Positions 32,201 to 58,139 of a stretch of DNA of 64,000 nt are shown piece after piece. Both the position numbers and the translations under genes were made by a program. The notes beneath the pieces were generated by a model that was given only the letters and a program-made list of their open reading frames with translations, made no database searches and was not told the origin of the DNA. Position 1 is the stretch's first letter. Each line of letters begins with the position of its first letter. This stretch comes from Hericium rajendrae. Its lineage: Eukaryota; Basidiomycota; Agaricomycetes; Russulales; Hericiaceae. The stretch is from positions 1,116,001 to 1,180,000 of the forward strand of contig CM065886.1 of the NCBI GenBank assembly GCA_033439255.1, in the 5' to 3' direction.

Positions 32201-35200
32201 CTAGGATTGTGAGCTTTGAAGCCTCAGCTTGGCTTCAATTTCCTGTAATAATTTCTCATCTCTGACTTCACCTGTGGAATCAAAGACTTGTTTATGCAAT
32301 TGTTGAGCCCTGCTTAAGGAATCATGGGCTTCATGAAGCTGGTTCAGTTTGATTTCCAATTTTCCCAGACATTGTAAGCTATCTGCTTGGCCTGAGACAT
32401 CTTGAGCTTTGATGTGCAGCTTTAGTGCCTCTGCAAGATGCTGTCTTGCAATATCATACTTATTCAGTTTTATGTCCAATTCTCCCAAACTTTTAAGATC
32501 ATATGCCTGGCCTACAGCATCCTGAGCTTGGGTGTGCAGCTTTAATGCCTGCTCAAAATGCTCTCTTGCAGTATCAAACTTATTTAGTCTTATCTCCAAC
32601 TGTCCCAAGTTATTAAGATCATAACCCTGGCCTAAAATATCCTGAGCTTGAATGTGCAGGTTCAGTGCTTTCTCAAGATGTTCTCTTGTTATGTCATGAT
32701 CATCTAATCTCAGATCTAATTCTCCTAAAAGTTGCAGATCATTAGCTTGGCCTAAGATACTTTGAGCTTGAATATGTAGCTTCAATGCCTCCTCAAGATG
32801 CTTTCTTGCTGCATTCAGTTCATTAAGTCTTATATTCAATTGTCCCAAATCTTTAAGATCATATGCTTGGCCTAAAACATCCTGAGCTTGGATGTGCAAC
32901 CTCAGTGCTTCCTCAAGATACTTTTCTGCTATATTAAGCTCATCCAATCTCATATTCAATTCTCCCAAAAGTTGGAGATCATTAGCTTGACCTAAGATAT
33001 CCTGAGCTTGATTGTGCAGTTTAAGTGCCTTTTCAAGATGCTGTCTTGCTGCATTCAGTTCATTAAGTCTCATATTTAATTCACCCAAAAGTTGCAGATC
33101 ATTGGCCTGACCTAAAATATACTGAGCTTGGATGTGCAGCTTTAGTGCCTTTTCAAAATGCTTTCTTGCTATATCAAGCTCATCTAGCCTCATGTCCAAT
33201 TCTCCCAAATATCTGAGATCATCAGCTTGACCTAAAATATCCTGAGCTTGGATGTGCATCTTTAGTGCTTCTTCAAAATGCTGCCTTGCTGCATCAAATT
33301 CATTAAGTCTTAAGTACAATTGTCCTAAACTTTGCAGATCATTTGCCTGACCAGAGATATCCTGAAGTTGGATGTGCAATGATAGTGCCTTGTCAAGATG
33401 CTCTTTTGCTATATCAAGCTCATCCAGTTTATTTTGATAAACTCCCATTGTATAATGTATATCTCCTTGAAGCTGAATATCATTGATCTGAACTGCCAAG
33501 GCTATTGCTTTGAATAGCTGATCCTGAATACCACCAATATTATCAAACCTTATACACAATTTAGCATAAAGATGAAAATAATGGCTTTGAGTAAAGAAAG
33601 TGATCATCTCAATGTAAGATTCACAGCTAGACAATATAACCATCTCATTTATCCCTTCAGACATTGATGTCTGAATAAACATTAAGATCATATTTATTAT
33701 TTGATTTTTATTGTTACTAAATAGAAGATAATGCTGTAATAGTGATCTCAAATTATTGCCATCAATCCTTATATTTCTATTGTTTCTCATTTCATCACAG
33801 TCTTCAAGCCACTGAGTAGTATAAGTTATTAACTTGTTATAACTATGTGGATTAATTTCTTGGAAAGGATGATGCTTTTTTATATAAAGTAAGATTGGTG
33901 ATAGTAGTTTCATTCTTTTATGCTCAATATCTTTTGAGATCAATGCACAATTTTGTAATTGTTGTAAAGGATCAGAAATAAAATTTTTAAAATCAAGAAC
34001 TTCTTGAATATTCTCCTCTTGAGATTCATCTATGCCATCTGGAAGCATAGACAAGACACTCATAATTTGCAGACATTGAGAATCATTCAATCTGGGACTC
34101 TTCAAAGAGAGTTCAATAGAACATTCTACACTAGACAACCTGTTATTCTGTACTTGCTTTCGAGTTAGAAGTTCCAATTGCTCAGTAGACCACTGCTTCC
34201 AGACTCTCTTAGATGTACTGGTTCTAGTATAATGTGCAAGCAAAGTTACTGCCAATGGAACACAGTCTACAGCTTTCATCAGATTTTGAGCATATTCATC
34301 ATTATAATGAGAAATGTCATAAAAGACTTTCATAGCAGCATCTAGATCCAAAGGCTTGATTGGTGGTAACTGAGCTGTCCATGATATATTCCAAGGATAC
34401 TCTTCACCCCTCATTGTGATCAAAAGATGAATAGAATTGATTGCTGCCAGTTTAGACAGAAATTCTTCTACTTCATTGCTCTGAGATTCCCAGACTGTCT
34501 CAAGATTGTCTAAACATAAGATAGCTTTGCCTAAATTCATCACAGCATTGAGAACCCTAGCTTCATCCAGATTCTGCTTTGCATCTGCAGAAATGCCTAG
34601 CATTTGGCCAATAGAAATAATCAGAGCATCTCTAGATTCAATGGCATCACAGGCCAGAAAATAACATGCATCTTTATAGCTCTTTTGGATATCATCATGA
34701 TGCAAAACTGATAGAGCAATAGAGGTCTTTCCAATGCCCCCAGGACCCAAGAGAGCAAGTCTAGCAGCAGAGCCATGCAGAATAGCAGTCACAAGTTCAG
34801 CAATGATATCATCACGGCCACGCATGATTTGTGGTTTCGCAGGAAGAGTGTACTTGATTCTGTCGACAATGTTTAGTGTTACTACGATCTCGACAAAGAA
34901 AATGTTACACATACTTGATAGGCTGCGATGGAACCTTGAGATCACAATTATCAATGCTGGCACACGAAATGATAGCTCGAAGGCAAACCTTTATTAGTGA
35001 GGCCTCGTGCGGTATCCTTTGCAGCATACGGTTGTTCGAGAGATTGATTCTGGTCTGATGGACAGCTCAGAATTCATTGCTGACGATAGAATACCGGGCT
35101 TACATTGAAGAAGGCAAGTTCCATCTGAAGTTTCATTTTGCAGCTGTCAACAAGCGACTGCAACTCACGGCGTTGCAAGACGATCCGGATGTGGTCTCTC

Positions 35201-35778
35201 TTGCGCTTTGCACAACACTGAGAGATAGCTCGAACAATGTCTGCTAACAACCTAGTACACCTCATAACATTAGATGGCACACATGCGAGGAGGGAAGTAT
35301 CACGTACTGTTCGAGATTGCGAAGATGGCTTTGCACGTCGTCGGAAAGCACCAGGCTCGCAGCTTCCGATTGCGCTGATGGCCGTGCATATTCTTCGACA
35401 ATATTCCTAATCTGGTTGATATCGTTCATAACCTCTTTCCACTTATCTTTGCAAGCGGTCACCTCCTGCAAAGCCATCAACGCACGTTCCGCAGACTCGA
35501 AGAACACTCACATCCTTGATCTTCAAGATCTCCAACATGATATCGGCAACGAAGCCGATGTACGGAGCGTTTTGTATCATCCCTCCCGCGAGCTTGACAG
35601 AATTGAGGATCGTGTCGAAGTTGGATATGACGGCCGTTCCGACTGAGGTCGAGACCAACGGAGGGGATGGTTCGTCGGGTCCCTCGCGTGCACCAGGCTG
35701 GGGGGCGCTCGCAGAGGCCGACGGCGAAAGAGACGTGGTAACAGCAGTTGCGAGGACGTTGTCATTCATTTCTGACAT
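32201..35778 (-). CDS. NLR-like STAND protein 1: MLKL/HeLo-like helical domain, NB-ARC-type NTPase, TPRs
   Basis: Six exons, about 1,100 residues. The start is at MSEMNDNVLATAVTTSL (35778). The N-terminal part (FDTILNSVKLAGGMIQNAPY...EVTACKDKWKEVMNDINQIR...LRNLE...LLADIVRAISQ) is all-helical and resembles the four-helix MLKL/HeLo-like domains at the front of basidiomycete NLRs, a membrane-acting cell-death module in relatives. Small exons link to one long exon, 32201-34859. It carries Walker A GPGGIGKTS, Walker B AILCLDNLE, a sensor segment LLITMRGEE and the GLPL-like DCVPLAVTLLAH. Ten 40-residue TPR units follow (about 32,250-33,450) with consensus LGEL-RL-ELD-AR-HLEKAL. The stop is at 32201. 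The long exon is strikingly AT-rich compared with the first exons and neighbours. Probable role: ligand-gated oligomerisation triggering defence or incompatibility; inferred from architecture. Confidence 0.85.
32250..33460 (-). repeat. ten 40-residue TPR units of NLR-like protein 1
   Basis: A 120-base period is visible in DNA and protein; units 2-9 nearly all contain LHIQAQDILGQANDL-like sequence. Adjacent units are very similar to one another, more so than in NLR-like protein 2, suggesting recent unit exchange or amplification. Confidence 0.92.
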
Positions 35779-36526
35779 GTCCTCAACAAGTGTTGGGAAT
35801 GACGGGATGTTGGAGGAATATGGATCCGAGTTATACGATGAGCTAGCTGCCAGACGTGGTGAGACTCAGAGAAAGACGACGAATCTGATGGCAGCCTCGA
35901 GGCTGGATTATCGCCATGTTTGGTTGTCGGACGACCCTGGGCGAATCAAATTAGAGCGTCTGCCTAAGTTCTTACTCTGCAGAGCGCCTCTATGCGCGAC
36001 GCAGAGACTTCAGGACTGTCCTGCTCAAGTCCTGTTAAGTACATTGCTGTTACCCGTGCCAGATGACTGGTTCTCACCTTTCTTGCCCTTAAGCCCATCT
36101 GGAAGATCCGTATTGCTTTGCGACGCAGCCACAAATCCATAGAGTAAGTGGTACATACCCTATGCCATCACATGCGTAAGGGTGAGGGTCAGCACCCGCT
36201 ATGAGTGCAGGGTTTACGCACCTACGGAGATAAGCTCGTAAGTGATCGTCTCCGATTGCAAAAGCTATCCGTAGGCTACGGCGAGCACCGGCCTTCCGAT
36301 TTTGACATCAGTTTTTTTCACGAACAATCATGGCAATATAATTCGATTACTTTACAACATGACCTATGAACTTCTTGGCCACGAATGCCCACTAAACGCA
36401 GATACGATGGCCCTCGATGACCCTCGAAGCTAAATGAGTTTAATATTACATACCTCTCTAGGTTACCCTACAATAATATAACAAAGCCTCTGCAAAGAAT
36501 CCGCATCCCAAGATCCTCAAGCTACT
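35779..36526. promoter_or_regulatory. upstream region of NLR-like gene 1
   Basis: No gene is seen. On the minus strand, about 35,800-35,920 resembles the 110 bases ahead of NLR-like gene 2 (about 53,210-53,320), sharing ATGGCGA, CCTCGAGGCTG and a TCTTTCTCT tract. This likely marks a duplicated promoter or leader. Confidence 0.5.
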
Positions 36527-38557
36527 CTAATCAGTAGACAAGGGCTCGCCCCACCTCACCTTCGGCGCGGTAGGGTACACAGGGTACAGATACATGTCGG
36601 TCCGCGCATCAGCGTACTCCATCACGACCTCGCGCTCGACGCGCACCGACACGGTGAGCTCGCCGAGGTCCTGTTCCGCGTGCGCCGACTCCTCGCCGTA
36701 CCGCGCGCCCTTGCGCGTCGCGGCGAACTGCGCGCGCATCGCATTGCTGACGTCGCGCGACGACTGCAGGTATTCGCTGAGCAACTCGCGGGGCGGGCTA
36801 GGGCTAGTTCCGGCGTCTGTGGGCACGGCTATCAGAGCGGAGTAGGGTGGATGTGCGGGGGAGACTGACCGCGGATGTGGATCAGGATGCGCTGGCTCAT
36901 GATCCATGTTACGGCATAACCTAGCGATGCACTTAGAGCCGGTGTGAGATGCTGTAAGCAAAACTGGTTGCCAAAAGCATATGGCACTTACCCGGATGAC
37001 TATAAGAAACAGTCAGATATAAAAGGATCATTCATGCATTCACGGGGAAAACTGACCTGCAAAGACTCATCGCTGCCACGGTACAGAATTACATTGAGAA
37101 CGTTCGAGCCTAGCGAATAGGTCATCAGAGTCTAGTCGTTGCAGAATTCTGGAAGCATCGGAGTTACCAGTCAGTACCACGAAATAGCCAATGCCGTCGT
37201 ACAGCATTCTACGTGGATGTCAGCTCCTTTCCAATTAAGCATGAAACCTTCTCACACTCTGATGAGGTGCGACATCCTGCAGGGGGCAGGTCAGTGCCAA
37301 TAACATAATCATAGCACGGGAAAACACGCACGCAGATGATCGCGGCCTGTATCGGATCAAGTAAAGAGTGGAAATTCCTAGGGTCGCCAGGTCGAATATC
37401 ATCGACATAAGGTAGAATAACCAGACAGCTAAGTCGTTTTCGGGATTTGAGTTTGCGGGCGAGCAGCTGGAAGAACACCGTAAACAAGCAAGACTACAAG
37501 CGAGCAGTGTCATACTTACTTTCCCTGATAACCGGATGAAGATACGTGTAGTCAGACGTAGGAGTGGTCAAAGCATGGAAAGCTATACGTACATTCACGC
37601 TAACGGCTAGATCGCCGGTGTTGTCAGCTCTCTAGCAATAGAAGAGCCAACATCCGCACTCACGGATTCGATGATACATATTTGTGAACCATTCTAACTG
37701 TCGAACGAAGACGCCGTCAGCACGCATCGGCGAGACACCATAAAGATATTCGGCTCACAACTGTGATAACTACTCCAACAACAACAAGGCCAATCCCTAT
37801 CCACCGACTTCGCCGCGCGATATTCCACGCCCTTGCGCCGAGAATGATTTGCGAGACCATCGTCTGCATGACTTAGACACGGCAATGTCAGATCGGATAG
37901 AACAGGTGCAGGAGAAGTGCAATCACCTTTGAGCACAGGCGCTGCCATGTAATAATGCCGACACGATTCCTGCGTGAAATGGCGACCGAAGAAGCCGACA
38001 TTGCTGACTATGAGTACAGCTATGCTGATGTATCTGCAGAACATAAACATTTCATTCGGCGATAATGAGAGCATAGGCAAAGGCCGCTCGCACCTGATCA
38101 AGACGAAAAGAACGACGCCAGCACTGAGGACATAACGCGAAGATAGTCGAATTGAGGATGACTCTGATTAAGAACACTTCAACGCGCACCTAGGACGAAT
38201 TGGCTTAGGCTGACTTCGGTAGAACCGCCATTCCGCAGGAAGGGTGTGGATGTAACTGTAAGTCAAGGTAGCAGCAACTCAGTAAGGTTTCCGCAAGAAG
38301 TCTGAGGACAAACCACTCCTACTCACTCGTACAAAGCAATAGAGAGCGACGCAATGCGCAAATTATTCGCCGTCGTCTGCGACTGGAGAGAATCAGCGCG
38401 GATCCATAAGTCAAGCATATTGCCTAGGAAATACGTGGGGACCAGCAGCAGCAGGAGCACGGGAAGGTCATAAATATGGATCCTGATTATACTCACATGA
38501 TGTTATAAGAGCATTACTTACCCGATCGTTGGCGGCGCCTGTCCTTTGGAGTTTCAT
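36527..38557 (-). CDS. DUF6533 domain multi-pass membrane protein
   Basis: Intron-dense gene starting MKLQRTGAANDR at 38557. Spliced blocks are IHIYDLPVLLLLLVPTYFLG (38,420-38,490) and RIASLSIALYDYIHTLPAEW joined across an intron, the DUF6533 signature with WRFYRSQ. LSAGVVLFVLIR, YISIAVLIVSNVGFF, NDLAVWLFYLMSMIFDLATL (about 37,390-37,450) and MLYDGIGYFVVLTG (about 37,160-37,210) follow, then TWIMSQRILIHIR (36,868-36,910) and a soluble tail ending PLSTD with the stop at 36527. About seven helices are predicted, resembling a receptor-like topology, but no signalling role is established for the family. It belongs to a large basidiomycete-expanded group. Confidence 0.75.
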
Positions 38558-39807
38558 ATTCGACCCTTTCGGAATGATCCCGGCTAGCGATCGACAGGCG
38601 ACAGGTCGCCGGAGGAGCGGCGGTTATGCGGAAAGTGGACGGTAGCGGGCGGTGACTGGAACGTCATTGACGGGGCCCTCACAATTTTTCGAAGGCGCCA
38701 GTGTGACAGAAAGTGCACATCAGCCCGAAACCATGAAACATGTTCTGTAAGCTCGAACACCGCAGCTAGCCATCTTCGCGAAGCATTTTGCCAAATTCTT
38801 GGCTGTGCATACTAACTGGTTGGGTTTCATCTGAGACGTTGAAATAACAGATACACACCGACATGGACAGTAATTTAAGGTCAGGCGGCATCATAATATC
38901 AGCATATCCGCCTGTTCAGGAACAAGTGGCGTTTTCCTGTGTATGCACGATGCATACCAAATGGCGGGCTGATTCTTGACGTCTTTCATCCATTAATTGA
39001 TGCTGGGCATGATGCCGCGGCCGAGGTCGAATGTAATAGTGCGAGCGCCGAGTAGCATCATCACAGGCCAAAATTACCCAGCTTCCCCGCTCTCCTCGGG
39101 ATCTAAAAGTAGTGCGGTCGGTATGCGAGCGGCATGGAAACTGAGTATCCACTCACATGCATATGGGGATGCCTTGTTCCATTCTGAGGTCGCAATGATG
39201 TCGTCAGTTCACCTGGAAACATTCGCAAGGTGTTCTGTCCAGTAATTCGGTCGAGATGAGAACCAGTAATTAACCATCCAGCGCGGTATAATGACAGAGA
39301 TAATCATGTACAACATGTCATGATAGGAACTTGGCTTCACAGATGCCCTGGGCTAGGCTAGACTGGATTGCAGAGGAGGAGCATCAGATTCAGAGCTTGA
39401 GGAAGACCGGAACTGGATTTGTAGAATGAGACCCAATTTGTGCTCTCGAAGAATATCGCATAGTTGGATATCGAAACAAAGGGCAATTTGTAGCTGGTGA
39501 TTTCAAAGTAAGTCAGATCCGTTGTCTGCATAGTGTCCGCGTCGTTCAAGACGACGTCTGACGACGAGGAGCGCAGACGTTGCGCAGACGGTTTGATATT
39601 GACCGGGCCGACCGGGCCGGTGCTAAAAATCAGTCGGCGAACCTTCAACTTCGACAAGATACTTGTGCAAGCAATTGTATCTCCAACGACACTGTATCTC
39701 TAGTCCGACCTTTCACTTTCCAACTGTATCAAACAGCAGTCTTGTTCTGTACCGTCCTTGTTCAACTCGACTAATCTCGGGAACCAGCAATCCAGTAATA
39801 TTCAAAG
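38558..39807. other. intergenic region between two divergent genes
   Basis: No gene was recognised. It should hold the divergent promoters of the DUF6533 gene and the tRNA methyltransferase. C/T-rich tracts at 39,690-39,780 just ahead of the ATG at 39808 are typical of fungal leaders. Confidence 0.4.
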
Positions 39808-43234
<3,427 letters not shown>

Positions 43235-43289
43235 CTGAGCTCGTTGTCAGATTGCGCACACTTACATATGTAACACATGATATTCGTCT

Positions 43290-44030
43290 TGTCTTCGTCT
43301 GTTATCCCGCGACAAGCTGCGACTCGAAACATTTGGGTTGCGGCTAACAGAAAGTATCCACCTTCGCGTCCACGCCATCGAGCCCGTTTGGCCATATTCG
43401 TACTGGAACTGGCACCCTTGACAAGCCGTATGTAGTGCGTGCATGCAGTCAACAAAGCGGCATAATATATGTCCGTCACATAACCTTAAAAACACTCCCT
43501 TAGGTGCGACCTAGAACGGAAGGAAGTCATCCATATTCGTATCTCCAGTTGCTGGTATGCGACCATGGGTGAGCTGAAAACGGTAAGAAGTCGTCCGCAT
43601 CCAGGTCCTTGCCTTGGATCGTTCCCTTGCGACAACCTGAGACCCACAAACGGTAGGATGTCCTCCATATTTGTATCTTCAGCATCCGCCCTGCAGCCGG
43701 AGCAACAACACGCAACCTGAAAAGGGTAGGAATACAAGTGCTGTCAATGCCTCAAGTTCTTGCCCGATCAATGCCCTTGCGACAAACCGCAACTTGAAAA
43801 CGATCCGATGTCTTTCACATTCCTGCCTTACATTATTTCCTTGCGACAGCCCGTGACCTGGAAATAGTAGGAAATTGTTCTCTTGCGACAACCTGCAAAT
43901 TTGCGATGCACGGGGGATTCCTGTTGCATATTGTCACCATGCGACAACCTACGACCCATGAAAGGATGTGGAACACGTCTGCATCTTCGGCTGTTATCCT
44001 GCGACAAGCTGCGTCTCGAGAAACCGTATA
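43290..44030. repeat. degenerate tandem repeat built on GCGACAAsCTGCGAC
   Basis: At least eight spaced copies of a loose unit: GCGACAAGCTGCGAC near 43,308, GCGACCTAGAAC near 43,505, GCGACCATGGGTGAGCTGAAAACGGTA near 43,558, TTGCGACAACCTGAGACC near 43,627, CAACCTGAAAAGGGTAGGA near 43,713, TTGCGACAAACCGCAACTTGAAAAC near 43,785, TTGCGACAGCCCGTGACCTGGAAA near 43,842 and 43,880, ATGCGACAACCTACGACC near 43,938 and GCGACAAGCTGCGTCTCG near 43,999. Spacing is irregular (about 50-100 bases) and the copies are diverged. It lies just after the methyltransferase stop. Not a CRISPR; possibly an old minisatellite. Confidence 0.65.
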
Positions 44031-44303
44031 GCCATACTCAGCACTGGAATTCCTCGAGAAGCCATGTGCAGCACGCGGATACATTCAACGAGACAGCACA
44101 ATATGTGTCCCGTCACTTACCCTTATAAACAGTCAAAGATCACATCACTTACCCTTATGAATAGTCAACGATCACATTTAGGTAGCCCTACAGAGCCACT
44201 ATCTAGAGGTAGCGGGAGATATGGCCGGCATTCTGAATTATTCTGTCGCTTCGCTAAGGGCAGGACAGAATCGCTCGGGAGAACCGGTCCCAACTGAATT
44301 CCG

Positions 44304-44706
44304 CTAAATGCATGAGAAAAATTCGGCGACTCGAATGAGAGCTGCGGCACTCACGACGTTCGCATTCCAGAACGGATCCTTCTGCACGATCTCCTTGGCC
44401 TCTTCCAAGGAACTTGCCTCGATGACTAGGTACGTTCCGACCATCTTCGGATCCTGGACGCCCTCTTCCAGCGACTCAGGCGCGACCATGATGCCCACGT
44501 CAACTACCGGTCGCAGGATGATCAGCAGCACGTGAACGCAGGGAAAACGAGTTCATCGACGTACTGAGGATACCGCTCTCCTTCATCGCTACTATGCGCG
44601 CGGCGTGCGTCGCTCCAGCAGACCGTTGCTGGCTGCCTGCATCGGCGTCATTATGATCGGGTGCATAGACGAGGAAGTGAGGCTTCGGAGTGTTCTTAGA
44701 CAACAT
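44304..44706 (-). CDS. YCII-domain protein
   Basis: Small two-exon gene. Start MLSKNTPKPHFLVYAPDHND at 44706. The exon ends at KESGIL and an intron with a GTACGT donor joins to IDVGIMVAPESLEEGVQDPK, then MVGTYLVIEASSLEEAKEIV, KDPFWNANVVSAA and the end AEFFSCI before the stop at 44304. The pattern (FxVYAxD start, HxxxxxxxKESG, gxxMVGxxxVxEAxSxEEAxxxVxxDPF) is the YCII-like dimeric alpha/beta-barrel fold. The enzymatic role is not established for fungal members. About 110 residues, the usual size. Compact and apparently intact. Confidence 0.85.
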
Positions 44707-45265
44707 GGTGAATGATGGGCAACGGAAGAATGTGATTGGTTCCAGTGCGCATGGATGAGTCTTTTTATACTCGAACATGAGCAAGATAGAGAGCCTGTTT
44801 TCCAAGCCCGATAATTAATAGCGTACGATCGAGTATGTTGAGGACACCATGGCCCGTTCCTCACCCAGGCTCGAGTTCCGTCGAGCATCGAATGGGCGAA
44901 TACTGTGCGAGCCGATCGCAGACCCACTTCATGACCGGCGTGTGTTGAGAGCAGTATGGAGTAGTATGGTTCTTCGGCGGGGTTAAGTATATCATTCTCA
45001 GACTGGCGTCACAAAGGAATCGACGATGAGTTCAATCGGCTGCGCTACGTCAGCTTCTTCTCCCAGTCGATCATCCTTTCTCGCCTGAGAGCGCGGTGTT
45101 ACGGTTAAAGGAGATAACATGGAGAACATCAGACGGACATCTCGAAACAACTCATCTCGGTCATGGATCTCGTTTGTCTGGTTTTTAGTCAGCGGTCTGT
45201 TAACACGCACCTCATGAAACAAATAACGGAATAATCTAGACATGGGGAAAGGGATGATATAGAGC

Positions 45266-45768
45266 TTAAAGATCGACAGGGAGCTGTGTTTGCGCCTGAG
45301 CACCTGGGGTTTTCAACATCATGGGTAGGTAGGATGCCACCAGCGCAAACAAAGAAAGCCTGAACGACGTGGCAGTCAACAACAGCTCAGCGCGATATTC
45401 GAAATAACGCACATCAGATTCGCGATAGGCGGGCTACCGCCCTCCTTCGTCCGCAGGGGGTGCTGGTTGATCCACGCATTGAATCCCAGTATGAACGCAG
45501 GCCACGCCAGGTACCTGCCGACGCGATCAGTCATTCTTCGCATTTTGAGATAGCTCATGACGCACCTATTCCGCGTCACCATGATCAACCCAGACAGAAA
45601 CATACCTGACGTTGCGAGCGCGTCTGCACGCATCCAGTAATGATGTGAGCCGACCTGGCATATGTTCATGAAGGCACAGAAGTACGCACCGACACTCTCC
45701 GTACGCCATACCGACGGCGGGCAGTACTTGACTTCGAGAGACGCGTCGCGTGGGTCGTTCTGCGACAT
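45266..45768 (-). CDS. Asterix-like PAT-complex subunit (UPF0139)
   Basis: Small ER membrane protein gene starting MSQNDPRDASLEVKYCPPS at 45768; DPR plus KYxPP is the Asterix N-terminal signature. Splicing joins a TRN-R-YLAWPAFILGFNAWIN segment to KEGGSPPIANL and, through a last intron, to MLSLFALVASYLPMML, which aligns with the conserved final helix (human SFMLSISAVVMSYL). The stop is at 45266-45268. In animals Asterix with CCDC47 forms the PAT chaperone that shields polar membrane helices during insertion at the ER translocon. The middle exon limits (around 45,520-45,610) are less sure. The fungal protein is slightly longer than the human one. Confidence 0.7.
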
Positions 45769-46050
45769 GGTATGAGCTATACTTTGAGGGATTTGAATGG
45801 CCGAGCAGCTACAGGAGGGAGCCTGTAACGCGGGGAACGAGCGTCATTATAATTACCTTATCAGTTTCCTTAACAGTATTTAAATATTTAATGTAATGTT
45901 CCAAAAATAATTTGTCAAAGCTCGATCTCATTGGGATCTCATCCAACAACTTGGCACGCTTGTCAAATGCTTGTGCTATAGTATATACATTGCTGGTCGG
46001 ATTTCATGAACCTCTCCTCACCATCTTGATGCACGGTGGTATTCTGCAAA

Positions 46051-47124
46051 CTATTTCCGAAAACGTCCTGCCAATTCGTACCCAGCCGCGATATGGTCCA
46101 GTCGAGCATCTACCATGCAGCCCCTCTTCACAAACCCTGCAAAAGATCGGGGTTATTCCATGCAAGTGTAAGGAGTTGCAATCACACTTACCTTTGAGTT
46201 CTTGGTAGAGCTTGGCGAGCTCTACGACATGCACAGTGATGGCCTCGCCTTCGTCTAGCTTCTGTTTCGGAGTTTCGAGCTTGTCCTCCAGATCGACGTT
46301 GACGATGACGAGCTGCATATTCGCCGTCGACATACCTGTATCCCAAATAAGCAGAAATCCTATGGCCAAATGCTGAAAAACTAGCCTGGATCACTGACAA
46401 CAACGTCGCCCGTCTCTTCGATCCCCGTTCCGACATAGCCCGTCTCTTCTTCGAGCTCTCTGAGAGCGGCCTGCTCGGTCGTCTCTCCTTCGTCGATGAG
46501 ACCGGCCGGCAGCTCTACAATCAATTGTTATTTGAAAAGATTCTTATCATGTTAATGTATAACCCTGCCGATCATGAACTTGTCGATTGGCGGCCGATAC
46601 TGCTCAACGACCACCGTTGAGGTCTCAAACGCCTTGGTCTTCGAGCGGATGATGGCAAGGATGGCTACAGCTGAGCAACTCTCGGATCAGATGTATTCTG
46701 GATTCCGTAAACAATGAAACCTACCATCTACGCCAGTCGATCCTCTTGTCTTCCGCTCAGCTGATTCCCAGACTCTCTACAAAGAACGAATGAACGAAGC
46801 GTCAGCGTCAAATGTCAAAGAATACCTTTCGCCCCTGAGCATCCTGCCAGTTTATTTTCTTCAACGCGATCCACCTAATCCACCGCAAAAATATCGCGGT
46901 TCAATCAGATCACATCTTTGGCGAGAAGTCCGCAAAGAAAATCATTACTTGGCCTGGCTGCTGTCAAGCGGCTCCGTGGACAGAATGCATGGTTTCTGTG
47001 CCATGTTGTGTACTGTAGATGCGTGTCGTCTGCGTGTCCCCGTCAGGGTGCTTTGAGGTAGTCTTCGAGGGTTCAACGAAGGAGTGTTGAGCCGGTGAAG
47101 CGATCTGCAGGACGATTTGAACAT
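46051..47124 (-). CDS. Nudix ADP-sugar pyrophosphatase, YSA1/NUDT5-like
   Basis: Hydrolyses ADP-ribose-type nucleotide sugars to AMP and sugar phosphate. Exons read [19 protein letters not shown] then [49 protein letters not shown] and the Nudix box [20 protein letters not shown] with TGY following (46,430-46,505). [17 protein letters not shown] follows, and the last exon [15 protein letters not shown] ends with TAG at 46051-46053. The Nudix residues G, E, R, EE and the G after them are all present. There are two possible starts: the inner ATG at 47004, which gives the core YSA1-like start, or an upstream in-frame ATG at 47124. The latter adds about 40 residues rich in Arg and Ser and poor in acids ([15 protein letters not shown]...[10 protein letters not shown]), resembling a mitochondrial presequence. 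Confidence 0.87.
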
Positions 47125-47388
47125 ACAGTACAGCCTGAGTCCACGGGGAAAGTTCAGAGGTCTGACGTCACCGACCGCACAACCACCGCAGTCCTGCGCC
47201 AACGGCCCGGTACGGAGCAGACATCGTGTCCTCGAGAAAGAAGAGCAACAACAATATTAACGATAGCATGAAAGCAGGTACAATATTTTACATCCTAAAT
47301 GTGGGGGTATACTAAGACATCCAGCTTGTCGAGAAACGGCGCAATAGAGAGCAAAAACAATTGACGAAGATAGACACGACACAACTAC

Positions 47389-50300
47389 TCAGAGAGAAGC
47401 GAGAACCGACTGGACCCATGCGTTCTTCACGAGACGTGGTTGGAACTCGGCAAAACAAGCCTTGAGCTGCGCGAGCTGTGCCTCCGCCGAGAGGCCACCC
47501 GCCTGAGAAGGCGCGTCATCAGACATGAGGACGTCGCCGTCGTCGTCCACAGCTTGGCCCGCCGGTGCTTGGGCACTCCATGTCTTGAGGAACTCTTCGA
47601 TCAGCTGGACGCCTTCCTCTGTCACTTCGGGTGGAAGCTCAGGCTCTTGCGACGCCCCGTCTGTAGACAGGGGTGATCAGCACAGTAAGCACCAATGAGT
47701 AGATTGACCAACCCGTATTGAAGTCCTCGAGTTCATCGGCCTTACGCCTCGCGAGCTAAAAGAAGGGTGATCAAACTGTGACCAGACCAAAAAGAGCGCC
47801 GCTCAGCTTACCTTCACTACAGATTCTGGGAAGTTCGCTAGCTCGGCGACATGGATACCGAAGCTCTGGTCGCAAACGCCTAAGCAGCACTGTGAGCGCC
47901 CCTACTTTTCGAGTCTAACTGAGCCACTCACCGGGCTCGACCTTGTACAACAAAGTGATGTCGCGCTCTTGCGATGCTTCCCCGGCATTGGAAACGTGCG
48001 CGACAACGTGAAGGTTCTTCACATGCGACAGTTCTTGATCCAGTGCGGTCAATTCATGGAAGTGCGTCGCAAATAGACAGAAAGCATGAATTTGAGAAGC
48101 GATATGCCTGCAGAGGCGGTAAGTCTGGTTGTGGAACGAGTCGTCACGGGCAACTCACTCCGAGATAGCCCAAGCTAGGCCGAAGCCATCGTAGGTCGAT
48201 GTTCCTAGATAGCCCATCAGTGGGTCGTAGATAGACTTCGATTCGAGAAGACGCACCTCTTCCAAGCTCGTCAATGATGATGAGCGAATCCTTCGATGCA
48301 GACTAATGATCTACTCAGCATATCTTCCCACCGTATGTCATACATATCCGACGTACCTTGAGAATGGTCGCGGTCTCCAGCATCTCCGCCATGAACGTCG
48401 ATATACCCTTGAGCTGGCTGTCACCTGCACCGACACGACACAGGATAGAATCGAAGATGGGGATCTGCGCTTCAGCACAGGGCACAAACGAGCCGGCCTG
48501 CGCCATAAGTGCGATGACGCCCACTTGTCGGATGTACGTGCTCTTGCCGCCCATGTTGGGTCCAGCTACAGGAGTAGGCTTTAAGTGACGATAACGGCAC
48601 GGAATAAGGGTGAAACTCACTGATGATCTGGAACTCGCTTTCATCTGTGACGAAGTTAATTTGCATGTGTGTTTCGTCATCTAGCGAAAGTACTCACTTT
48701 TTATCATCTGGACGTCGTTGGGAATGAAGCTCATGTCGTCCTGGACCTCTAGGCAAGGATGGCGGGCTTCCTTCAAAATGAGATCGCCAGTACCTTGGGT
48801 ATTTCATCAGCATGGCACGTAAGGAATTGAGAAATTCGCAACCTTTCTCCATGACCGTTGGCTTGACGTAGGCTTCAGGAGCATTGACCGCGACATGGGC
48901 GAAGCTACAGCACGTGTCATTATTAGATCCTTCACTCATCAGATATAGAACTTTTACCTTAAACTGACATCCAAATGGGCCAGAACGCCATTGAGGTTCT
49001 CGAGCACAGGGGCGTAAGTCGCTGATAGTCATAGCATCAATGATCTCTCCAGCAGAAGCCGTTTCATTCGAAAGAAAGACTCACAAGCAATCCTAACGAC
49101 TTCCTTGACCAGTCCGCTCTGCGTGCGCGAGTATTGCGTCGTTGCATCCTGATATTCGACTGCCAGCTCCTTCAACGTCGTAGTCGTGAAGAAAACGCCA
49201 GACTTGGTCGTCCCCAGCTCAATATACTTCCTCTTATTCTGTATCGCCCGCGCATCCTACACCCATGCAGCGTCAGGCAGACCGCACACATCAGGAAGCC
49301 AAGCAACGCACGTTCTTCGTCAAGCGCATGCAATACCCATACGTCGCGGAGTTCTCCAAGTGCAGCTTCTTGTCGAGCTCCAAGCCGAGATCCAATCCGA
49401 CGTCGTGGTGCTCCTGGTCCAGCCCGTCGCGGACCTCGCGCAGCTTCTCGGCCAGAGCCTTCAGCCGCGCGTCGTAGTCGGGTTTGATCACGTAGTTATG
49501 CCGGTCGAGCTCTGCCAGGTCGAGCGTCTCCTCCGTCATCTCGGCGTACTTGTCCAGACTGGTCGCATACTCCTCGAAACGCGCGAGGTAGGTCTCTTGG
49601 ATGAGCTCCTTGCTGCGCTCGGTCAGCGTATTGACGTGTTTCAGGGTCTCGATGAGGCCTGCGAGCTATCGATACTGTCAGATTCCTGTCGAAGCGTTGA
49701 ACGTAAGGACAGACCTTGAGCACGGCCTGATACACTCGGACGACGTCCTCTAGCGAGGCCACGGACTTCTGGAAACGCTTGCAGATGCGGTTCATGTCGG
49801 GCATGTACTTCATGTAGTCGTCCTGCCATCATACCCGATGAGAATATGAATTTAAGTGGAGGCGACGCGGAGACGGACCTGGAGCGTCCGACGGGCATTG
49901 GCATCCTCGACGAAGATCTCAACGAGATCCTGCCTCTTCACTATAAAGAAGTTACCTCAATGCCATCAGGACAATGTGGGCAAGACGTACGGATCTCGTG
50001 TCGGTTGACGAGAGGCTGTTTGAGCCAGCTGCCAAGCAGCCGTGTTCCTTGTGCAGTCTTGCACTTGTTCAGCAGACCGGACAGCGTCGCGTTCTTGTTG
50101 ACAGAGCCCTAGTGTGGTAACATTCTAGTCAAAAAGGCCGGTAGTATCTACGAGAAACTCACAGCGCCAATTTCAACCAGGTTTAAGGCGCGCAATGCGC
50201 TGGCGTCCAGGCGCATATATTGACCGAGTTCATGCGTCCTAATAGTCCACGCCCCATGGTTTGCTGAGTCGCCTAGGAGACCAAGATACGCGAGCAGCGC

Positions 50301-51466
50301 GGCAAGGGCGCCTGGGGCCGTTGGCAAGCTGAGCTGGGCTGTTCGAAATAATGGTCGGAGTCAGTAGATAGAAACATAGCAAAGGCGGGCTTACGAAGGG
50401 CGCTGGATGCGTCTGCACTGGATGGGCCGGCTTCAGACTGTGGTATCAGTCGCGTGAGATCTTCTTCGAGGTGCTTTGCTGTGAACTCGCCTGGGTGAAA
50501 TTTTATCAGGTGAGTGATGCTGCGCATGAAACGAGGGAAGTATTACGAACTTGGTTTTCGCTCAGTGATCACGACACCACAGCGCTCCAGGACATCTCTG
50601 AGTTTTTTCAGATCAAAATCACGGTCAGTTGTACCTGTCGCAGTCCCAGTCGTAACCAAAGCCTCCTTGATTCCGAGCTGGATGACCAGTGTCTATTCAA
50701 CGATCATTAACGACTCTTGAAGTAGTCTGAAACAAGAACCCAAACCTCCGTATTTGAGAATAGGTCATTGTCCACAAAGTCCGAAACGCCGAGCTCGCGC
50801 GTGCTCGAATCCGCAAAAGCAATGCCGATAGTTTTGTTCTTGCTTTTAGACGGCGCGCCTGGGACAGTAGGCGTCGACGCAATTTTGATTGCCATGACCA
50901 TCGGGGCCGTCATGACATCCGTATCAGCGAATAGCATATCCTCGACTGCATGCAAGTTTCCTGGAGATGCCTGTGAAACGTGCACCGAGATATAGTCATC
51001 CAGGTCATACGTGCCATGCGAGCGCTTACCTCTTTGTCCAGCTTGAACTTCGTAACCTTCTTGCCCTGTCCACCTTCTGGCACCCATATCTCCACCTTCA
51101 GCTGCTTAATCGTGAGCGCCTCTCTCAGGAATGTCTTCGCGATCATTGGCCTGAGTGTCACGCTCGGCAGGCCTTTGTCTCGCGAGGCAGACCCGAGGTA
51201 CTTAAGCACCGAGTTGGTGTGGAACACATGCTGTGCGACATAGACAGCATCATCTCCATGTGCTGTATAGTATTCCTCGTTGCTCCGCACAAAGAGGCGT
51301 ATAGTACCTGTAGTTTCAGGCGACTTCGCAGGAAGCTTTTTGAAGAAAGTGCAGAATCCGGGGTCGATGCTCGTGTCTAATGCGGATAAGACTGAGTATA
51401 CCGAGAAGAAGAGGGCGACGTACCTATGTCCTGGTCGTCCTTTTCTTTGCCGTACATAAGAGCCAT
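47389..51466 (-). CDS. MSH2: DNA mismatch repair protein MSH2
   Basis: MutS homologue that pairs with MSH3 or MSH6 to bind mismatches. The start exon [14 protein letters not shown] (51466) is spliced to [16 protein letters not shown], followed by [17 protein letters not shown], the classical MSH2 N-terminus. The clamp/lever region includes [20 protein letters not shown] (49,480-49,520). The ATPase carries Walker [10 protein letters not shown] (48,545-48,565), [20 protein letters not shown] and [10 protein letters not shown], Walker [13 protein letters not shown] (48,256-48,290) and FATHFHEL (about 48,050-48,075). The C-terminal dimer helices end VQSVLASL at 47389. More than twelve short introns. 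All key ATPase motifs are present. A decayed piece of the same gene lies at 29,935-31,070. Confidence 0.93.
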
Positions 51467-53334
51467 GGTGGTTGCAGAAAGGAATGCTCCTGTCCTGTGC
51501 ACGACGCGTCGCGTCGCGTCCATAAGCGCCGAACGGAGCGCTGAACCGGGTGCAGCCGAGCCAGCCCAGGCTGCAAAGCCCGAAAGGAGTCGTCGTCTCA
51601 CCCTTCATGCAGTCTGTCTTACTCACAAGAATTGGAAGAATTGGATGGTAGTTGTTTCTCGGAAGTGATGCTCACGAATGACCCACGACTTATCTTCCTA
51701 CAGACTCTGTTTCCCGGCTGGTCTGCTAGTAACTTGCACCGATGTGTACAGAAGCCGCGTTGTCCCCACCGCAGCATCTGAAGTTTACGGTGCTAAAGAA
51801 ACTAACTTCACTCAACTGTTTCTTAATTTACAGTGCTTCATACCTATATCTCAGGGTATCAAAGCAAGGGTAGAAGCTGATATGGTATCGTTCTCTCTTA
51901 ACTTCGAATATGATTCCATTCTGCCCCACTTCTCCTTTCAGTAGTCCAGTGCGCCGGGGACCATGGATATGCACACAGGCGCAGATGCTGGTAACATACA
52001 TGTCCCCTCGTTGTATTAGTCCGAGCCAACAACGTGGACGAGCTGTCCATCCATCATGAAACTATGGAAGCCGCTACGGACCCCTAGCCATGTTTGATGA
52101 CAGCCAGGATATCTAAGAACTGACTGTCTTGGACATTCTCTTGGTGGTCAACGAAGGAGGTACGTCTCGCTACTGCTGGGGAAATCGTGGACAATGTTCT
52201 AACCCTTTCTGTCCCTTCCACTAGATGACTGTCGTACGACAATGAATCTGGTCCGTGTTGAGGCGCTGGTATTTGGTCAAGCTAGTCAGCATGCGCGCCT
52301 AATCAGAGCTATGTAACAAGGTGAGGTTGGTTTGATCACTGTCTCACATTGTCCGACTCAGAATCACGTCTGCCGGTACACCCAGGCTTCATCCCTTCAT
52401 CTTCGTCAACTGAACGGGACCACAACGACTTTGGAAAGTCCTTGATCAACGTACCACGAAAGAAAGGACAACTTTCATCACTGAGCGCGTGCTGGCGTAG
52501 CGTTTGCCGGCCAGAGTTGCTCATTCTTCTCGCCCGTGTGGAGCCGAACATGGAAGTGGCAGAGAAGACACGATGAACTACGTTCTGAAGGCCGGCCACT
52601 GCTTCTTGAATGTTCAGTATTTCAGTGCGGAGATCTAGAGGACATGGGCACTGCAAATAGGATTTTTTTCCTCTTTCCTCACATACGAAGAGGCTAATTG
52701 CTACTGCACAGCTTGAAGTTGGCCCGATGCAGATCCTAGAGATGAGAAGACTTTTCTCAGCCAGCTTGGAGTAAGAGATAGGAATACATGTTCGCCAGCT
52801 ACTACAATCGGACGCAATAAAATCGGACGCGAATTAGGCCCTGCGGCGTTGAGACTCATGCAGGTTATTCCATGTACGTTGTCTCATATATTCATTGCAC
52901 CCCCTTTCGCAGCGGACACTAGCATTTTCTACAGGCACTAGTTGACCGTCCGCGTTCAGATGCATATGGATTAAGCATTTATCTCTACAGTACATAGCGC
53001 TTGACCGATCTGTCATCGCCTGTCACTGGACATATTATGCTTCAGCTTCGTAGCGAACGACTACCGGGAAGTCACGTTGCTTTGAGAGACACAACGTCCA
53101 CATCCCAGCAAAACAATCTTGAAGTCCTTGCGTCGTAACTCGAGGCGCTTACCACGATAAGAAGTTAAACTGATGCTCATGTTTTGATTCGCTCGGACCT
53201 CGTGCAGCGAACAAATATGGCGACACTTGTGCCTCGAGGCTGTCAGACTCTCTGTCTTTCTCTCGACCCATCTCGCAGCTCGCCGTCTAACTCTCGAATC
53301 ATCTTGCTGAACATCCATCGTGCTCATCGAAGCC
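51467..53334. other. intergenic region between divergent MSH2 and NLR-like gene 2
   Basis: No gene was recognised in 1.9 kb. The end near 53,210-53,320 is a promoter/leader block shared with NLR-like gene 1. The end near 51,467 should be the MSH2 promoter. Frames such as 52,336-52,656 lack motifs. Confidence 0.45.
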
Positions 53335-56300
53335 ATGTCAAAGAAAGATCCCAAGGTCGTGGTATCTGCTGATCCCGCATCGTCCGCGCCCGCGCCCGTT
53401 GCGGGCGGTGGTCGCGAGGAACCCAGTCAATCATCCTCCCCGCTGGCTTCAGCATCAACCGGAGCCACTGTCACATCGAACTTCGAGACAATCCTCAACT
53501 GTATCAAGCTTGCGGGCGATATGACGCAGAATGTCCCGTACGTCGGTTTTATCGCCGACATCTTGCTGCAGATCTTGAAGATCAAGGATGTGAGTGTTCT
53601 TCGAGTCTGCAGAACATGCGCTGATGGCTTTCTAGGAGGTGACCGCTTGCAAAGATAAGTGGAAAGAGGTTATGAACGATATCAACCAAATCAGGAACAT
53701 CGTCGAGGAATATGCACGGCCGTCGGCGCAGCCGGAGGGAGCTGCGAATCTGGTGCTTTCCGATGACGTGCAAGCCCATCTTCGCAATCTCGAAAAGTAC
53801 GTGATTGTTTCCTCCTCGCATGTGTGCTGCCTAATGTTATGATGTATAATAGGTTGTTAGCAGACATCGTTCGAGCTCTGTCTCGGTGTTCTGCAAAACG
53901 CAAAAGGGACCACGTTCGAATCGCCTTGCAGCGCCGTGAGTTGCAGTCGCTTGTCGACGGCTGCAAAGTGAAACTTCAGATGGAACTCGTCTTCTTCAAT
54001 GTAAGCCTGTCTTTCTTATTGTCAGCAGTAATTTCTGAGCTGTCCGTCAGACCAGGATCAATCTCTCGAACAATCGTATGCTGCACGATGTGTCACAAAT
54101 AAAGGTTTGCCTTTGAGTTATCATTCGGTGTACAACTGATAATCACTATCATGTCAAGGTCTCGTCTACAACTATCAAGTATGTACACCAAGTCGCTTCG
54201 TCATGGAATGCACTTCATACTGAATGATATTGACAGGATCAAGTACACTCTTCCTGCGAAACCACGCATCATGCATGGCCGTGATGATATTATTGCTGAA
54301 CTTGTGACTGCTATTCTGCATGGCTCTGCTGCTAGACTTGCTCTCTTGGGCCCTGGGGGCATTGGAAAGACCTCTATTGCTCTATCAGTGCTGCATCATG
54401 ATGATATTCAAAAGAGCTATAAAGATGCACGTTATTTTCTGGCCTGTGATGCTATTGAATCCAGAGATGCTCTGATTATTTCTATTGGCCAAATGCTAGG
54501 CATTTCTGCAGATGCAAAGCAGAATCTGGATGAAGCTAGGGTTCTTGATGCTGTGACAAATCTAGGCAGAGCCATCTTGTGTTTGGACAATTTTGAGACA
54601 GTCTGGGAATCTCAAAGCAATGAAGTGGAGGAATTTCTGTCTAAGCTAGCTACAATCAATTCTGTTCATCTTTTGATTACAATGAGAGGTGAAGAGTATC
54701 CTTGGAATATATCATGGACAGAATTGCCACCAATCAAACCCTTGGATTTAGATGCTGCTATGAAAGTCTTTTATGACATTTCTCATTACAATGATGAATA
54801 TGCTCAAAATTTGATAAAAGCAGTAGATTGTGTTCCATTGGCAGTAACTTTGCTTGCACATTATACTAGAACTAGTACATCTAAGAAAGTCTGGAAGCAG
54901 TGGTCTACTGAGCATTTTAAAATCTTGTCTCGCAAGCAAGTAGAACATAATAGATTGTCTAGTGTAGAATATTCCATTGAACTTTCTTTGAAGAGTCCCA
55001 GATTGAATGATTCTCAGTGCCTGCAAATTATGAGTATCTTGTCTATGCTTCCAGATGGTATAGATAAATCTCAAGAGGAGGTTATTCAAGTGATCCTTGG
55101 ATTCAAAGATTCACTTTCTGATTCTTTGCAAACTTTAAAGAATTGTGCATTGATCTCTGAAGCTGTTGAGCATGGAAGGCTAAAATTACTATCACCAATT
55201 TTACTTTACATGCAAAAGCATCATCCTTTTCAAGAAATAAATCCAGATGGATATTATAATCTAAAAAATTATGCTCATTATTGGCTTAAAGATTGTGGTG
55301 AAAGAATAAACAATAGAAATATAAGGACTGATGGCAACAATCTAAGAACACTGTTGTACCATTATCTTCTTTTCAGTAATGAAAAACATCAAACAATAAT
55401 AATGATTGTAACATTTTGTCAATTCTCAATGTTAGAAGGAATAAATGAGATGGCTATGTTGTCCAAATGTAAATATTATATTCAAGAGATTGATTCATCT
55501 ATCCAAAGCTATTTTTATCTTATATATGCTAAAATATGTATAAGATTTGATGATTTTCATAATGCTCAAAGTTACTTACTCAAAGCAATGATCTTGGCAG
55601 AGCAGATAAATGATACTCAATCTCAAGGAGATATACACTATACAATGGGAGACTATTATTATAGGCTAGATCAGCTTGATAAAGCAAGAGAGCATCTTGA
55701 AAATGCAATGACACTACATATTCAAGCTCAGAATAGCTTACATCAAGCATATGATTTACAACTTTTGGGAGAATTAGACCTAAAATTGCATAGGTATACT
55801 TTAGCAAAAGAGCATCTTGAAGAGGCACTAAAGTTACATACTCAAAATCAAAGTATTTTGGGCCAAGCTAATGATCTCAAAGAATTAGGAGAATTAGCTA
55901 TGAGACTAAATGAGCTTGTTATAGCAAGAGAGCATATTGAAAAGGCACTAAAGCTGCATATTCAAATCCAAGATATCTGTGGTCAAGCTGATGTTTTGAG
56001 AAAGCTTGGACAATTAAATATGAGACTAGATAAATATGATACAGCAAAAAGACATCTTACAGAAGCACTGAAGTTGCATATCCAATGTCAGAGTATTTTA
56101 GATCAGGCACATGATCTTACAGAGTTAGGAAGATTGGATTTAGAACTTAACAATCTTGATGCAGCAAAAAAATATCTTAATGATGCATTCAAACTACACA
56201 TTCAAGCTCAAGATATCTTAGGCCAAGCAGATGATCTCACAAGTTTGGGACAAGTAGAAATGAGGGTAAATAGACTTGATGCTGCAAGACATTGCCTTGA

Positions 56301-56892
56301 GAAAGCACTAAAGCTAAATGTTCAAACTCAAAATATCTCAGGCCAGGCTAATAACCTGCTACTTTTAGGAGCATTGGATATGAAACTAAATGAGCTTGAT
56401 ACAGCAAGACATCATGGTAGAGAGGCACTGGAGCTGTATATTCAAGCTCAGGATATCTTAGGCCAAGCTAATACCTTGCAGCTTTTTGGACTGTTAGATA
56501 TAAGACTCAATAAACTTGATACAGCAATGGTGCATCTGGAAAAGGCACTAAAACTGCACACTCAAGCTCAGAGTATCTCAAGCAAAGCTAATGATCTCAA
56601 ACATTTGGGAAACTTGCATATGAGACTGTGTAAACCTGATGCTACAAGAGAATGCTTTGAGAGAGCACTAAAGCTACACACCCAAGCTCAGGATATCTTA
56701 GGTCAAGCAGATGACTTGTACTATTTGGAACTTTGGTATTTTGCATTTAATCATCTTTATGAAGCCCATGAACTCCTAAGTGTGGCTCTTCAATTGCATA
56801 AACAAACTTCTAATTCTGTTGCAGAAGCCAGAGATGTACAATTATTACAGAAAGTTGAAGCCAAGCTAAGACTTGTAAACTCCCAGTCTTAG
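53335..56892 (+). CDS. NLR-like STAND protein 2: MLKL/HeLo-like helical domain, NB-ARC-type NTPase, TPRs
   Basis: Six exons whose lengths keep the frame: 53335-53589, 53636-53796, 53853-54000, 54051-54104, 54159-54178 (20 nt) and 54237-56892, giving 1,097 residues. The N-terminal helices (FETILNCIKLAGDMTQNVPY, EVTACKDKWKEVMNDINQI, LLADIVRALSRCSAKRKRD) match the MLKL/HeLo-like four-helix type. The long AT-rich exon carries GPGGIGKTS (Walker A, about 54,350), AILCLDNFE (Walker B), LLITMRGEE and DCVPLAVTLLAH, then ten 40-residue TPR units (about 55,630-56,840). The NTPase is almost the same as in NLR-like protein 1; the TPRs differ much more. It is oriented divergently from gene 1, 17.6 kb away. 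Expected to act as a cytosolic sensor coupled to a membrane-disrupting N-terminus; inferred from architecture. Confidence 0.87.
55630..56845 (+). repeat. ten 40-residue TPR units of NLR-like protein 2
   Basis: The period is 120 bases. Units begin LGEL/LGQL and contain LHIQ-Q---GQA-DL. They are more diverged from each other (for example LGRLDLELNNLDAAKKYLND, FGLLDIRLNKLDTAMVHLEK) than those of protein 1. Confidence 0.92.
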
Positions 56893-57658: not shown

Positions 57659-58139
57659 CATCAGGAAAATGTAGAGATGCTACATAGCTCTATCAGAGTT
57701 ATATAGAGTTCCTAGGGCCATAGCATTGCCCTTTACTCCATAGCCTATATAGCCAAGGAGAGATGCTATATAGTGCTATAGAGCTTAAGGGGAATACTAT
57801 AAAGTGCTATCATATCCATCATAGCTGACTATGCAGCTATCATAGGACATATAGCTATGGAAGCTATGGAAGCTATACTATTAATATAAGCTATATCCAT
57901 AAAGTAGACTTGACACATCTATAAAAGCAATAAAAGCTATTCATACTATCTAATCTACAATCAGACTACAAACAATTTTTCACACAAATTTCAGATCAAC
58001 AAAACATCAATAAAAGACATTATAATTCATTTGAAATACTAATACACAAATGAGTACTACTACATTATACTACAAAATTAATAAGCCTATACATATTTAC
58101 AAGTAGAAGTCAAACTATATCAGATAAAAGACATAACAT

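Follow-up and report, generated by a model that had tools for sequence, protein, structure and literature searches.

Introduction

Among the described systems closest to the fungal NOD-like receptor (NLR) genes considered here, three are from fungi. In basidiomycetes, 600 NLR N-termini have been described as MLKL-like (BaMLKL), some of them just under the Pfam thresholds and with an extra first helix (PMC9815663). The Podospora HNWD/NWD genes encode NLRs with long-period coding repeats, whose modules evolve apart and for which a role of repeat-directed C-to-T mutation has been proposed; CpA-biased repeat-induced point mutation (RIP) was described there in pseudogenes, with no high level in the WD repeats (PMC1805685). 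In the agaricomycete Rhizoctonia solani AG8, a CpG-biased, RIP-like change of CpG to TpG affects both genes and repeats and is seen as genome-wide single-nucleotide polymorphisms between nuclei (PMC4014442). Here, we analyse two NLR genes, A and B, which lie in divergent orientation in a 64,000-nucleotide stretch of the Hericium rajendrae genome (assembly GCA_033439255.1, contig CM065886.1, positions 1,116,001 to 1,180,000; hereafter the window) and whose sixth exon, encoding the receptor module, has lost almost all of its CpG dinucleotides.

As far as the available text describes them, the BaMLKL NLRs resemble the A/B family in having a helical N-terminus with sub-threshold MLKL-type matches, a STAND (signal transduction ATPase with numerous domains) NTPase and C-terminal repeats; a helix ahead of the bundle is also suggested in the A/B family by a poor structural model. 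That text describes no CpG loss confined to the receptor exon, as is seen in the A/B family. Unlike in HNWD/NWD, the A/B genes are intact and have lost nearly all CpG, most strongly in the repeats, and the changes are fixed and confined to receptor modules, unlike those of AG8. Listings of the open-access literature gave no account of CpG loss restricted to the receptor exons of fungal NLRs. A and B are ordinary as NLRs and unusual as a module-limited mutational footprint. We consider it likely (probability roughly 0.7) that they are intact members of a small, multicopy family of NLRs whose receptor module has long been targeted by CpG methylation and deamination, apart from the N-terminal module.

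CpG depletion of the receptor exon

The genome searched, the one fungal genome compared in this study, comprises 46.8 Mb in 19 contigs, of which C9 contains the window; its introns and gene content fit a filamentous fungus, probably an agaricomycete. Seven relatives of A and B elsewhere in the genome were modelled from the matches to NTPase and N-terminal protein queries, some of them broken: C46 (locus L046, with stops in the TPRs), D47, E48, F50, G51, H53 (with a deletion in the NTPase) and J52 (near the end of contig C8). Loci L049, L059 and L061 are degenerate pieces of the family.

Exon 6 contains four CpGs in A and five in B against about 125 expected. The CpG observed-to-expected ratio (o/e) of the exon is 0.04 in A and 0.06 in B, whereas the N-terminal parts have ratios of 1.10 and 1.16 and the window has one of 1.01. 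In both genes the last CpG before the desert lies 43 nt into exon 6, in the CGT codon of Arg235 in A and in the homologous codon of B, and CpG recovers 0.1–0.25 kb past the stop codons; the N-terminal exons and most flanks are CpG-normal. The longest CpG-free runs reach 2067 bp in A and 2215 bp in B. Among 1000 synonymous recodings the fewest CpGs were 95 with reference codon usage, taken from three CpG-normal NB-ARC-type genes, and 62 (A) and 54 (B) when the GC content of third codon positions (GC3) was matched. GC3 itself is 0.27–0.31 in exon 6 versus 0.50–0.67 in exons 1–5. In a codon-context pool of A, B, C46, D47, F50 and G51, which leaves out E48, H53 and J52, a third-position C precedes G in 3 of 609 cases and NCG makes up 1 of 335 NCR codons; other contexts in exon 6 lose C and G too, more mildly.

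TpG and CpA are both raised in exon 6 and GpC is not depleted. The loss of CpG together with the gain of TpG and CpA on both strands fits methylation-driven C-to-T decay. RIP of the Pezizomycotina type, a C-to-T change that prefers CpA, was rejected: CpA is enriched in exon 6 (o/e 1.43 in A and 1.32 in B), and it is CpG that has been lost instead.

Where CpG is lost in the genome

None of the 377 background windows of 500 bp has a CpG o/e below 0.3 (minimum 0.36); this set omits 31.5–36.5 and 53.3–58.5 kb of the window, the latter interval holding a low-CpG stretch at 57751–58250 beside B. Outside A and B, the longest CpG-free runs in the window are 521 bp, within that stretch, and 405 bp (60002–60406), and runs in loci L054–L058, L067 and L068 are at most 161 bp. 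Low-CpG stretches occur in all nine modelled members of the family, partially in J52 and E48, and also in the fragments L059 and L061, in the NB-ARC fragment L060, in the reverse-transcriptase locus L066 and at 57751–58250 of the window. The NTPase loci L054–L058, the degenerate L049, the NACHT gene L072 (minimum 0.38), the TPR-matching loci L073 and L074 and both of two P450 pieces are CpG-normal.

A second NLR family, of the NPHP3_N/NACHT type, shows a comparable pattern in three genes on contig C8 (L069, L070 and L071; 1.80–2.04 Mb; 82–92% mutually identical), where a CpG-normal upstream 0.5 kb is followed by a desert across the NACHT frame and 129-bp repeats. The 43-residue period of these repeats suggests WD40. 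Among the sequence stretches examined, and with overlapping rows merged, Tandem Repeats Finder (TRF) gave nine arrays of at least 250 bp: eight 120-/129-bp NLR arrays with a CpG o/e of 0.00–0.07 and one 18-bp array with 1.67. The latter is a CpG-rich minisatellite of 19 copies at 19299–19628 of the window, inside opposing long open frames. Tandem repetition alone was rejected as the trigger since this array is CpG-rich, and so was multicopy status alone, since the two P450 pieces are normal and the reverse-transcriptase loci mostly so. Genome-wide, 150 reverse-transcriptase matches were scored, many of them in frames of more than 1000 amino acids and with scores that are the same or almost so; a recent retroelement burst is suggested by this.

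Direction of the loss

Between residues 220 and 500, eight alignment columns have CGN in any of members A–H (A to H53). Columns 230, 233, 235 and 285 have CGN versus CAN or TGN, the change that CpG decay would produce; columns 222, 296 and 321 have CGA versus AGA, AAA or AAG and others. Arg453 is CGN in all seven of these members that have the site and Arg235 in seven of eight, all but H53, whose NTPase is damaged. Counted per 150 nt, the CpGs of J52 exon 6 number 19, 20, 17, 19, 19, 15, 6, 4, 2 and 1, followed by eight empty bins and then 1 and 1 (the start of the TPRs being taken from A); those of E48 number 9, 4, 2, 0 and 1, and then almost none follow. Because J52 keeps a CpG-rich NTPase that fades toward the TPRs and E48 is intermediate, we read the pattern as CpG decay that probably began in the repeats and moved upstream. 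Candidate enzymes exist: the cytosine methyltransferase family PF00145 has five exon matches that exceed the cut-off, spread over four loci; one has an internal stop, and their catalytic activity is putative.

Several observations weigh against methylation-driven decay targeted to the receptor module. CpG loss accounts for only about half of the GC deficit of exon 6, so that other C-to-T loss or drift also acts. Only two of 37 windows at five reverse-transcriptase loci fall below 0.3, these loci being mostly CpG-normal though many copies score alike, and deserts without a TRF-detectable array are present in C46, D47, E48 and J52. The N-terminal exons are duplicated too (A and B are 84% identical there in DNA) and are not depleted; duplication alone is therefore not the trigger. 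The stretch at 57751–58250 is AT-rich and CpG-poor, is closely preceded by ATAGC/TATAG-like words and holds no recognised repeat gene. In L069–L071, loci that were read without gene models, the desert is already present ahead of the NACHT frame, over candidate N-terminal exons, and N-terminal sparing is therefore shown only for the NB-ARC family. Basidiomycetes have been reported, in the accessible text, to lack RID and Masc1 homologues (PMC5073141). The fold of the N-terminal helices, which belongs to the same overall explanation, is likewise putative (see below).

Gene structure and the receptor module

A and B are fungal NLRs with an N-terminal helical domain, an NB-ARC STAND NTPase and a TPR superhelix (Table 1). 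An earlier, sequence-only reading of this DNA had proposed two intact divergent paralogues about 17.6 kb apart with a common exon structure, and complete models with matching phases bear this out. That reading makes no mention of the CpG loss in exon 6. The coordinates that it gave, 32201 and 56892, are the outer ends of two 929-residue stop-to-stop frames (32201–34990, minus strand; 54103–56892, plus strand), which are partly intron. All ten introns of the homology-guided models are GT-AG, 46–58 nt long and identical in phase between the genes, introns 4 and 5 flanking a 20-nt micro-exon. The exon joins are supported by conservation of the exon plan among relatives: it is repeated in L046 and L047, the micro-exon is 26 nt in L050 and is not separate in L048, and L051, L052 and L053 have variant gene models.

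Table 1 Features of genes A and B (positions in the window)
Feature	Position	Strand	Description
Gene A, whole	35778-32201	minus	Six exons, 1105 residues, no premature stops
A exon 1	35512..35778	minus	Start codon (ATG), a leader of low complexity and the initial helices of the N-terminal domain
A exon 2	35308..35465	minus	N-terminal helical domain
A exon 3	35104..35251	minus	N-terminal helical domain
A exon 4	34989..35054	minus	Linker
A exon 5	34915..34934	minus	20-nt micro-exon; size shared with B, L046 and L047
A exon 6	32201..34859	minus	NB-ARC NTPase, winged-helix-like segment, TPR array
A NTPase	34019..34837	minus	Residues 228-500; P-loop GPGGIGKTS
A TPR array	32204..33523	minus	40-residue units; 120-bp tandem repeat 32355-33423, 8.9 copies
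A CpG desert	32096..34815		Bounded by the CpGs at 34816 and 32095 and interrupted by a single one at 34162; covers exon 6 from codon 235 onward and about 0.1-0.25 kb past the stop
Gene B, whole	53335-56892	plus	Six exons, 1097 residues, no premature stops
B exon 1	53335..53589	plus	
B exon 2	53636..53796	plus	
B exon 3	53853..54000	plus	
B exon 4	54051..54104	plus	
B exon 5	54159..54178	plus	20-nt micro-exon
B exon 6	54237..56892	plus	NB-ARC NTPase, winged-helix-like segment, TPR array
B TPR array	55594..56889	plus	40-residue units
B CpG desert	54281..57145		Bounded by the CpGs at 54280 and 57146 and interrupted by two (54430, 54931); takes in about 250 bp past the stop

The NLR architecture and the retention of the NTPase motifs, both proposed previously, are upheld. 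The NB-ARC profile scores 35.2 bits in A and 32.4 bits in B (Pfam cut-off 23.5) and TPR_12 106.3 and 86.2 bits, each gene has about 11 TPR units, the frames are intact and the exons conserved, and GPGGIGK, CLDN and PLA are invariant in all seven aligned exon-6 frames, an alignment that omits the broken C46 and H53. A structure of A exon 6 predicted from seven aligned frames (mean predicted local distance difference test score, pLDDT, 78) comprises an NTPase of low to medium confidence, a segment containing a β-hairpin and a TPR superhelix predicted with confidence (most blocks having a pLDDT above 85). Its fold matches are mostly TPR proteins, with PDB 6mfv, a STAND protein with TPRs, at rank 28. 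This likewise combines an NTPase with a TPR sensor; it is archaeal and is not known to have an MLKL-type N-terminus, and in both respects differs from A and B.

The NTPase is near-constant and the TPRs are divergent, as had been claimed (A–B protein identity 91% versus 58%). By the NG86 method, the ratio of nonsynonymous to synonymous substitution (dN/dS) is 0.14 for the NTPase, 0.26 for the N-terminal part, 0.41 for the post-NTPase segment and 0.38 for the TPRs; YN00 gives 0.86 for the TPRs and no value for the post-NTPase segment. In the comparison suggested earlier, the ratio is higher for the TPRs than for the NTPase, and no computable pairwise estimate exceeds 1. Positive selection on regions of A and B was rejected on the NG86 values, and no such claim is made for the TPRs because the repeats are saturated and difficult to align. 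The most variable positions of the 40-residue unit are 32, 8, 5, 35 and 2 (38 units from A, B, F50 and G51); in a Podospora NLR, TPR positions are reported, in the accessible text, to be variable and positively selected (PMC4986451). It is reasonable to suppose from their divergence that the TPRs of A and B may recognise different ligands.

Recent gene conversion could also have produced the similarity of the NTPases, and silent differences are indeed fewer there (38 of 239) than just after it (27 of 100; Fisher p = 0.023) or in the N-terminal part (31 of 130; p = 0.07). These p-values are uncorrected, with 28 pairs tested, and a run-length permutation was non-significant, 4171 of 5000 shuffles giving runs as long, so that we regard conversion of this segment as unlikely. 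As the silent-site dip is modest and the run-length test negative, the near-constancy of the NTPase is attributed chiefly to purifying selection.

The N-terminal domain

The sequence-only reading had assigned an MLKL/HeLo-like N-terminus to A and B. When the nine family N-termini were aligned and scanned against Pfam, weak matches to MLKL_N (PF22215; E-value 0.01 or weaker) were found in five of nine and none reached the cut-off of 27 bits, the best score being 15.8. In single scans of six members, D47, E48, G51 and J52 match, and C46 and F50 give no MLKL_N match at an E-value of 10. A likewise has none at 10 and B none at 1; the remaining match of the five belongs to either B or H53. The four placed matches are in near-single register, with alignment start offsets of 87, 87, 90 and 87 and an end offset of 94 in all four. 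SesA is matched by two of nine N-termini, and none of five reversed controls matches either family. An MLKL/HeLo-type N-terminus is plausible for this family, and the N-termini fit the published BaMLKL description, membership in that group being putative.

Alternatively, the N-terminal helices could form an adaptor or coiled coil and not an MLKL/HeLo killer bundle. In favour of this are the failure of all nine N-termini to reach the cut-off and the top matches of A and B, which come from other helical families (ATG17_like and syntaxin). The forward consensus has no MLKL_N match, only RPW8 (E-value 1.3) among its 12 sub-threshold matches belonging to this superfamily, and searches of PDB sequences with the N-terminus alone and with a nine-row profile returned nothing credible. 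A genome search with MLKL_N found two weak exons elsewhere and none in the A/B family. The N-terminal fold model is all helical and of poor quality (pLDDT 66.8; predicted TM-score 0.43), its input being an in-frame read-through of L046 with two intron-coded inserts and its alignment lacking separate exon-2 rows and having the L047 row partly misplaced; a fold search of this model against the PDB gave no match at an E-value of 0.001 or better. MLKL_N is nonetheless the family most often matched, in a register that the reversed controls do not reproduce, and basidiomycete MLKL-like NLR domains are described, in the text available, as lying partly just below the Pfam thresholds (PMC9815663). We judge an adaptor or coiled coil to be the less probable assignment, with perhaps a minor chance of being correct. 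Introns 1 and 2 of C46 (L046:1176–1838), each 48 nt long, keep the reading frame open, and unspliced mRNA would read through both.

Selection, gene arrangement and module exchange

CpG could have been removed by selection, through avoidance at the codon or RNA level in exon 6, for example in escape from RNA decay or silencing. A near-complete depletion with intact frames would suit such an origin. It is, however, hard to reconcile with depletion that continues about 0.1–0.25 kb past the stop codons, with the sparing of exons 1–5 of the same mRNA and with a symmetric excess of TpG and CpA. Moreover, changes between CGN and CAN or TGN alter amino acids, and CGN is retained at Arg453 and, in seven of eight members, at Arg235, although AGA or AGG would be free. 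We therefore consider selection an improbable source of the desert.

Some plant NLRs form head-to-head pairs of sensor and helper, and a working pair had been suggested for A and B as well. They are divergent neighbours, both intact, and sisters in the trees of the N-terminal, NTPase and post-NTPase modules (support 93, 96 and 83, respectively). Their facing 5′ ends are 17,557 bp apart, however, and the intervening DNA contains MutS-type exons (48318–51671, minus strand) and an exon of an RsmB/F-type (NSUN-like) methyltransferase (40958–41812, plus strand), where NLR pairs with a shared promoter would be direct divergent neighbours. Both genes have the same set of domains, and they form one sister pair among the nine modelled members, the other seven lying elsewhere. 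A duplicated segment explains the arrangement: DNA similarity spans the gene bodies, from 35694/53407 to 32134/56959, and two short downstream matches (125 and 191 columns, 74%; 31940–31816 with 57423–57545 and 31688–31500 with 60400–60583). The arrangement resembles an inverted duplication more than a pair with a common promoter, and the suggestion of a working pair is disfavoured, a functional sensor/helper relationship being very unlikely.

NTPase identity to A is at least 72% in seven matches including A itself, with one more, partial, at 67%. Related NLR genes and fragments are clustered on contig C9 at 2.15–2.29 Mb, about 1 Mb from A and B; one of them has TPR stops and another lacks part of its NTPase through a deletion. 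The tree of the N-termini is rejected by the NTPase data and that of the NTPases by the N-terminal data (approximately unbiased test, p = 3.7e-5 for the N-terminal and 1.2e-5 for the NTPase data). The F50 N-terminus groups with A–C (support 87) and its NTPase with G51 and H53 (95), and identity between F50 and G51 is 24% for the N-termini, 84% for the NTPases and 77% for the post-NTPase segments. The receptor module has evolved apart from the N-terminal module, through exchange of partners among paralogues and through CpG loss.

Least probable of all, as judged within this one genome, is that exon 6 came from a donor poor in CpG and rich in AT and was fused to N-terminal exons already present, for although exon 6 is a single 2.66-kb exon with an abrupt CpG change at codon 235 and the lower GC3 given above, the J52 NTPase is GC-rich and CpG-rich and fades into a CpG-free stretch (with a partial gradient in E48), the unrelated NACHT family has deserts as well, and the DNA past the stop codons is depleted too.

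Proposed mechanism and significance

By analogy with other NLRs, the ligand of the TPRs would be non-self or modified-self, the NTPase would exchange nucleotide and oligomerise, and the N-terminal helices, likely of the MLKL/HeLo superfamily, would attack the membrane and kill the cell. Under methylation-driven decay, either the coding repeats with their long period or the presence of duplicated copies would attract germ-line CpG methylation in a manner resembling RIP or methylation induced premeiotically. Deamination of 5-methylcytosine would convert CpG to TpG/CpA, beginning in the repeats and later reaching the NTPase upstream of them, while selection would preserve the reading frame and a few essential CGN arginines. 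A tentative extension, which we regard as rather doubtful, is that the coding repeats act as their own mutator: CpG methylation would mutate the sensor and spread into the switch, the promoter and the killer domain would be protected, and, together with the swapping of N-terminal partners, this would amount to module-targeted diversification arising independently in the NB-ARC-TPR and NACHT families.

As a source of diversity in fungal receptors, repeat-directed mutation was earlier proposed in one ascomycete family (PMC1805685). The sharp borders inside single intact genes separate the parts on which such a process seems to have acted from those that it seems to have spared, and CpG loss in exon 6 may be a cheap marker for receptor modules. 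Gene-body methylation is described as largely lost in fungi, with some exceptions, in the available part of a recent account (PMC13297926); if methylation-driven decay of the receptor exon is true, these NLR genes would be an exception to that view.

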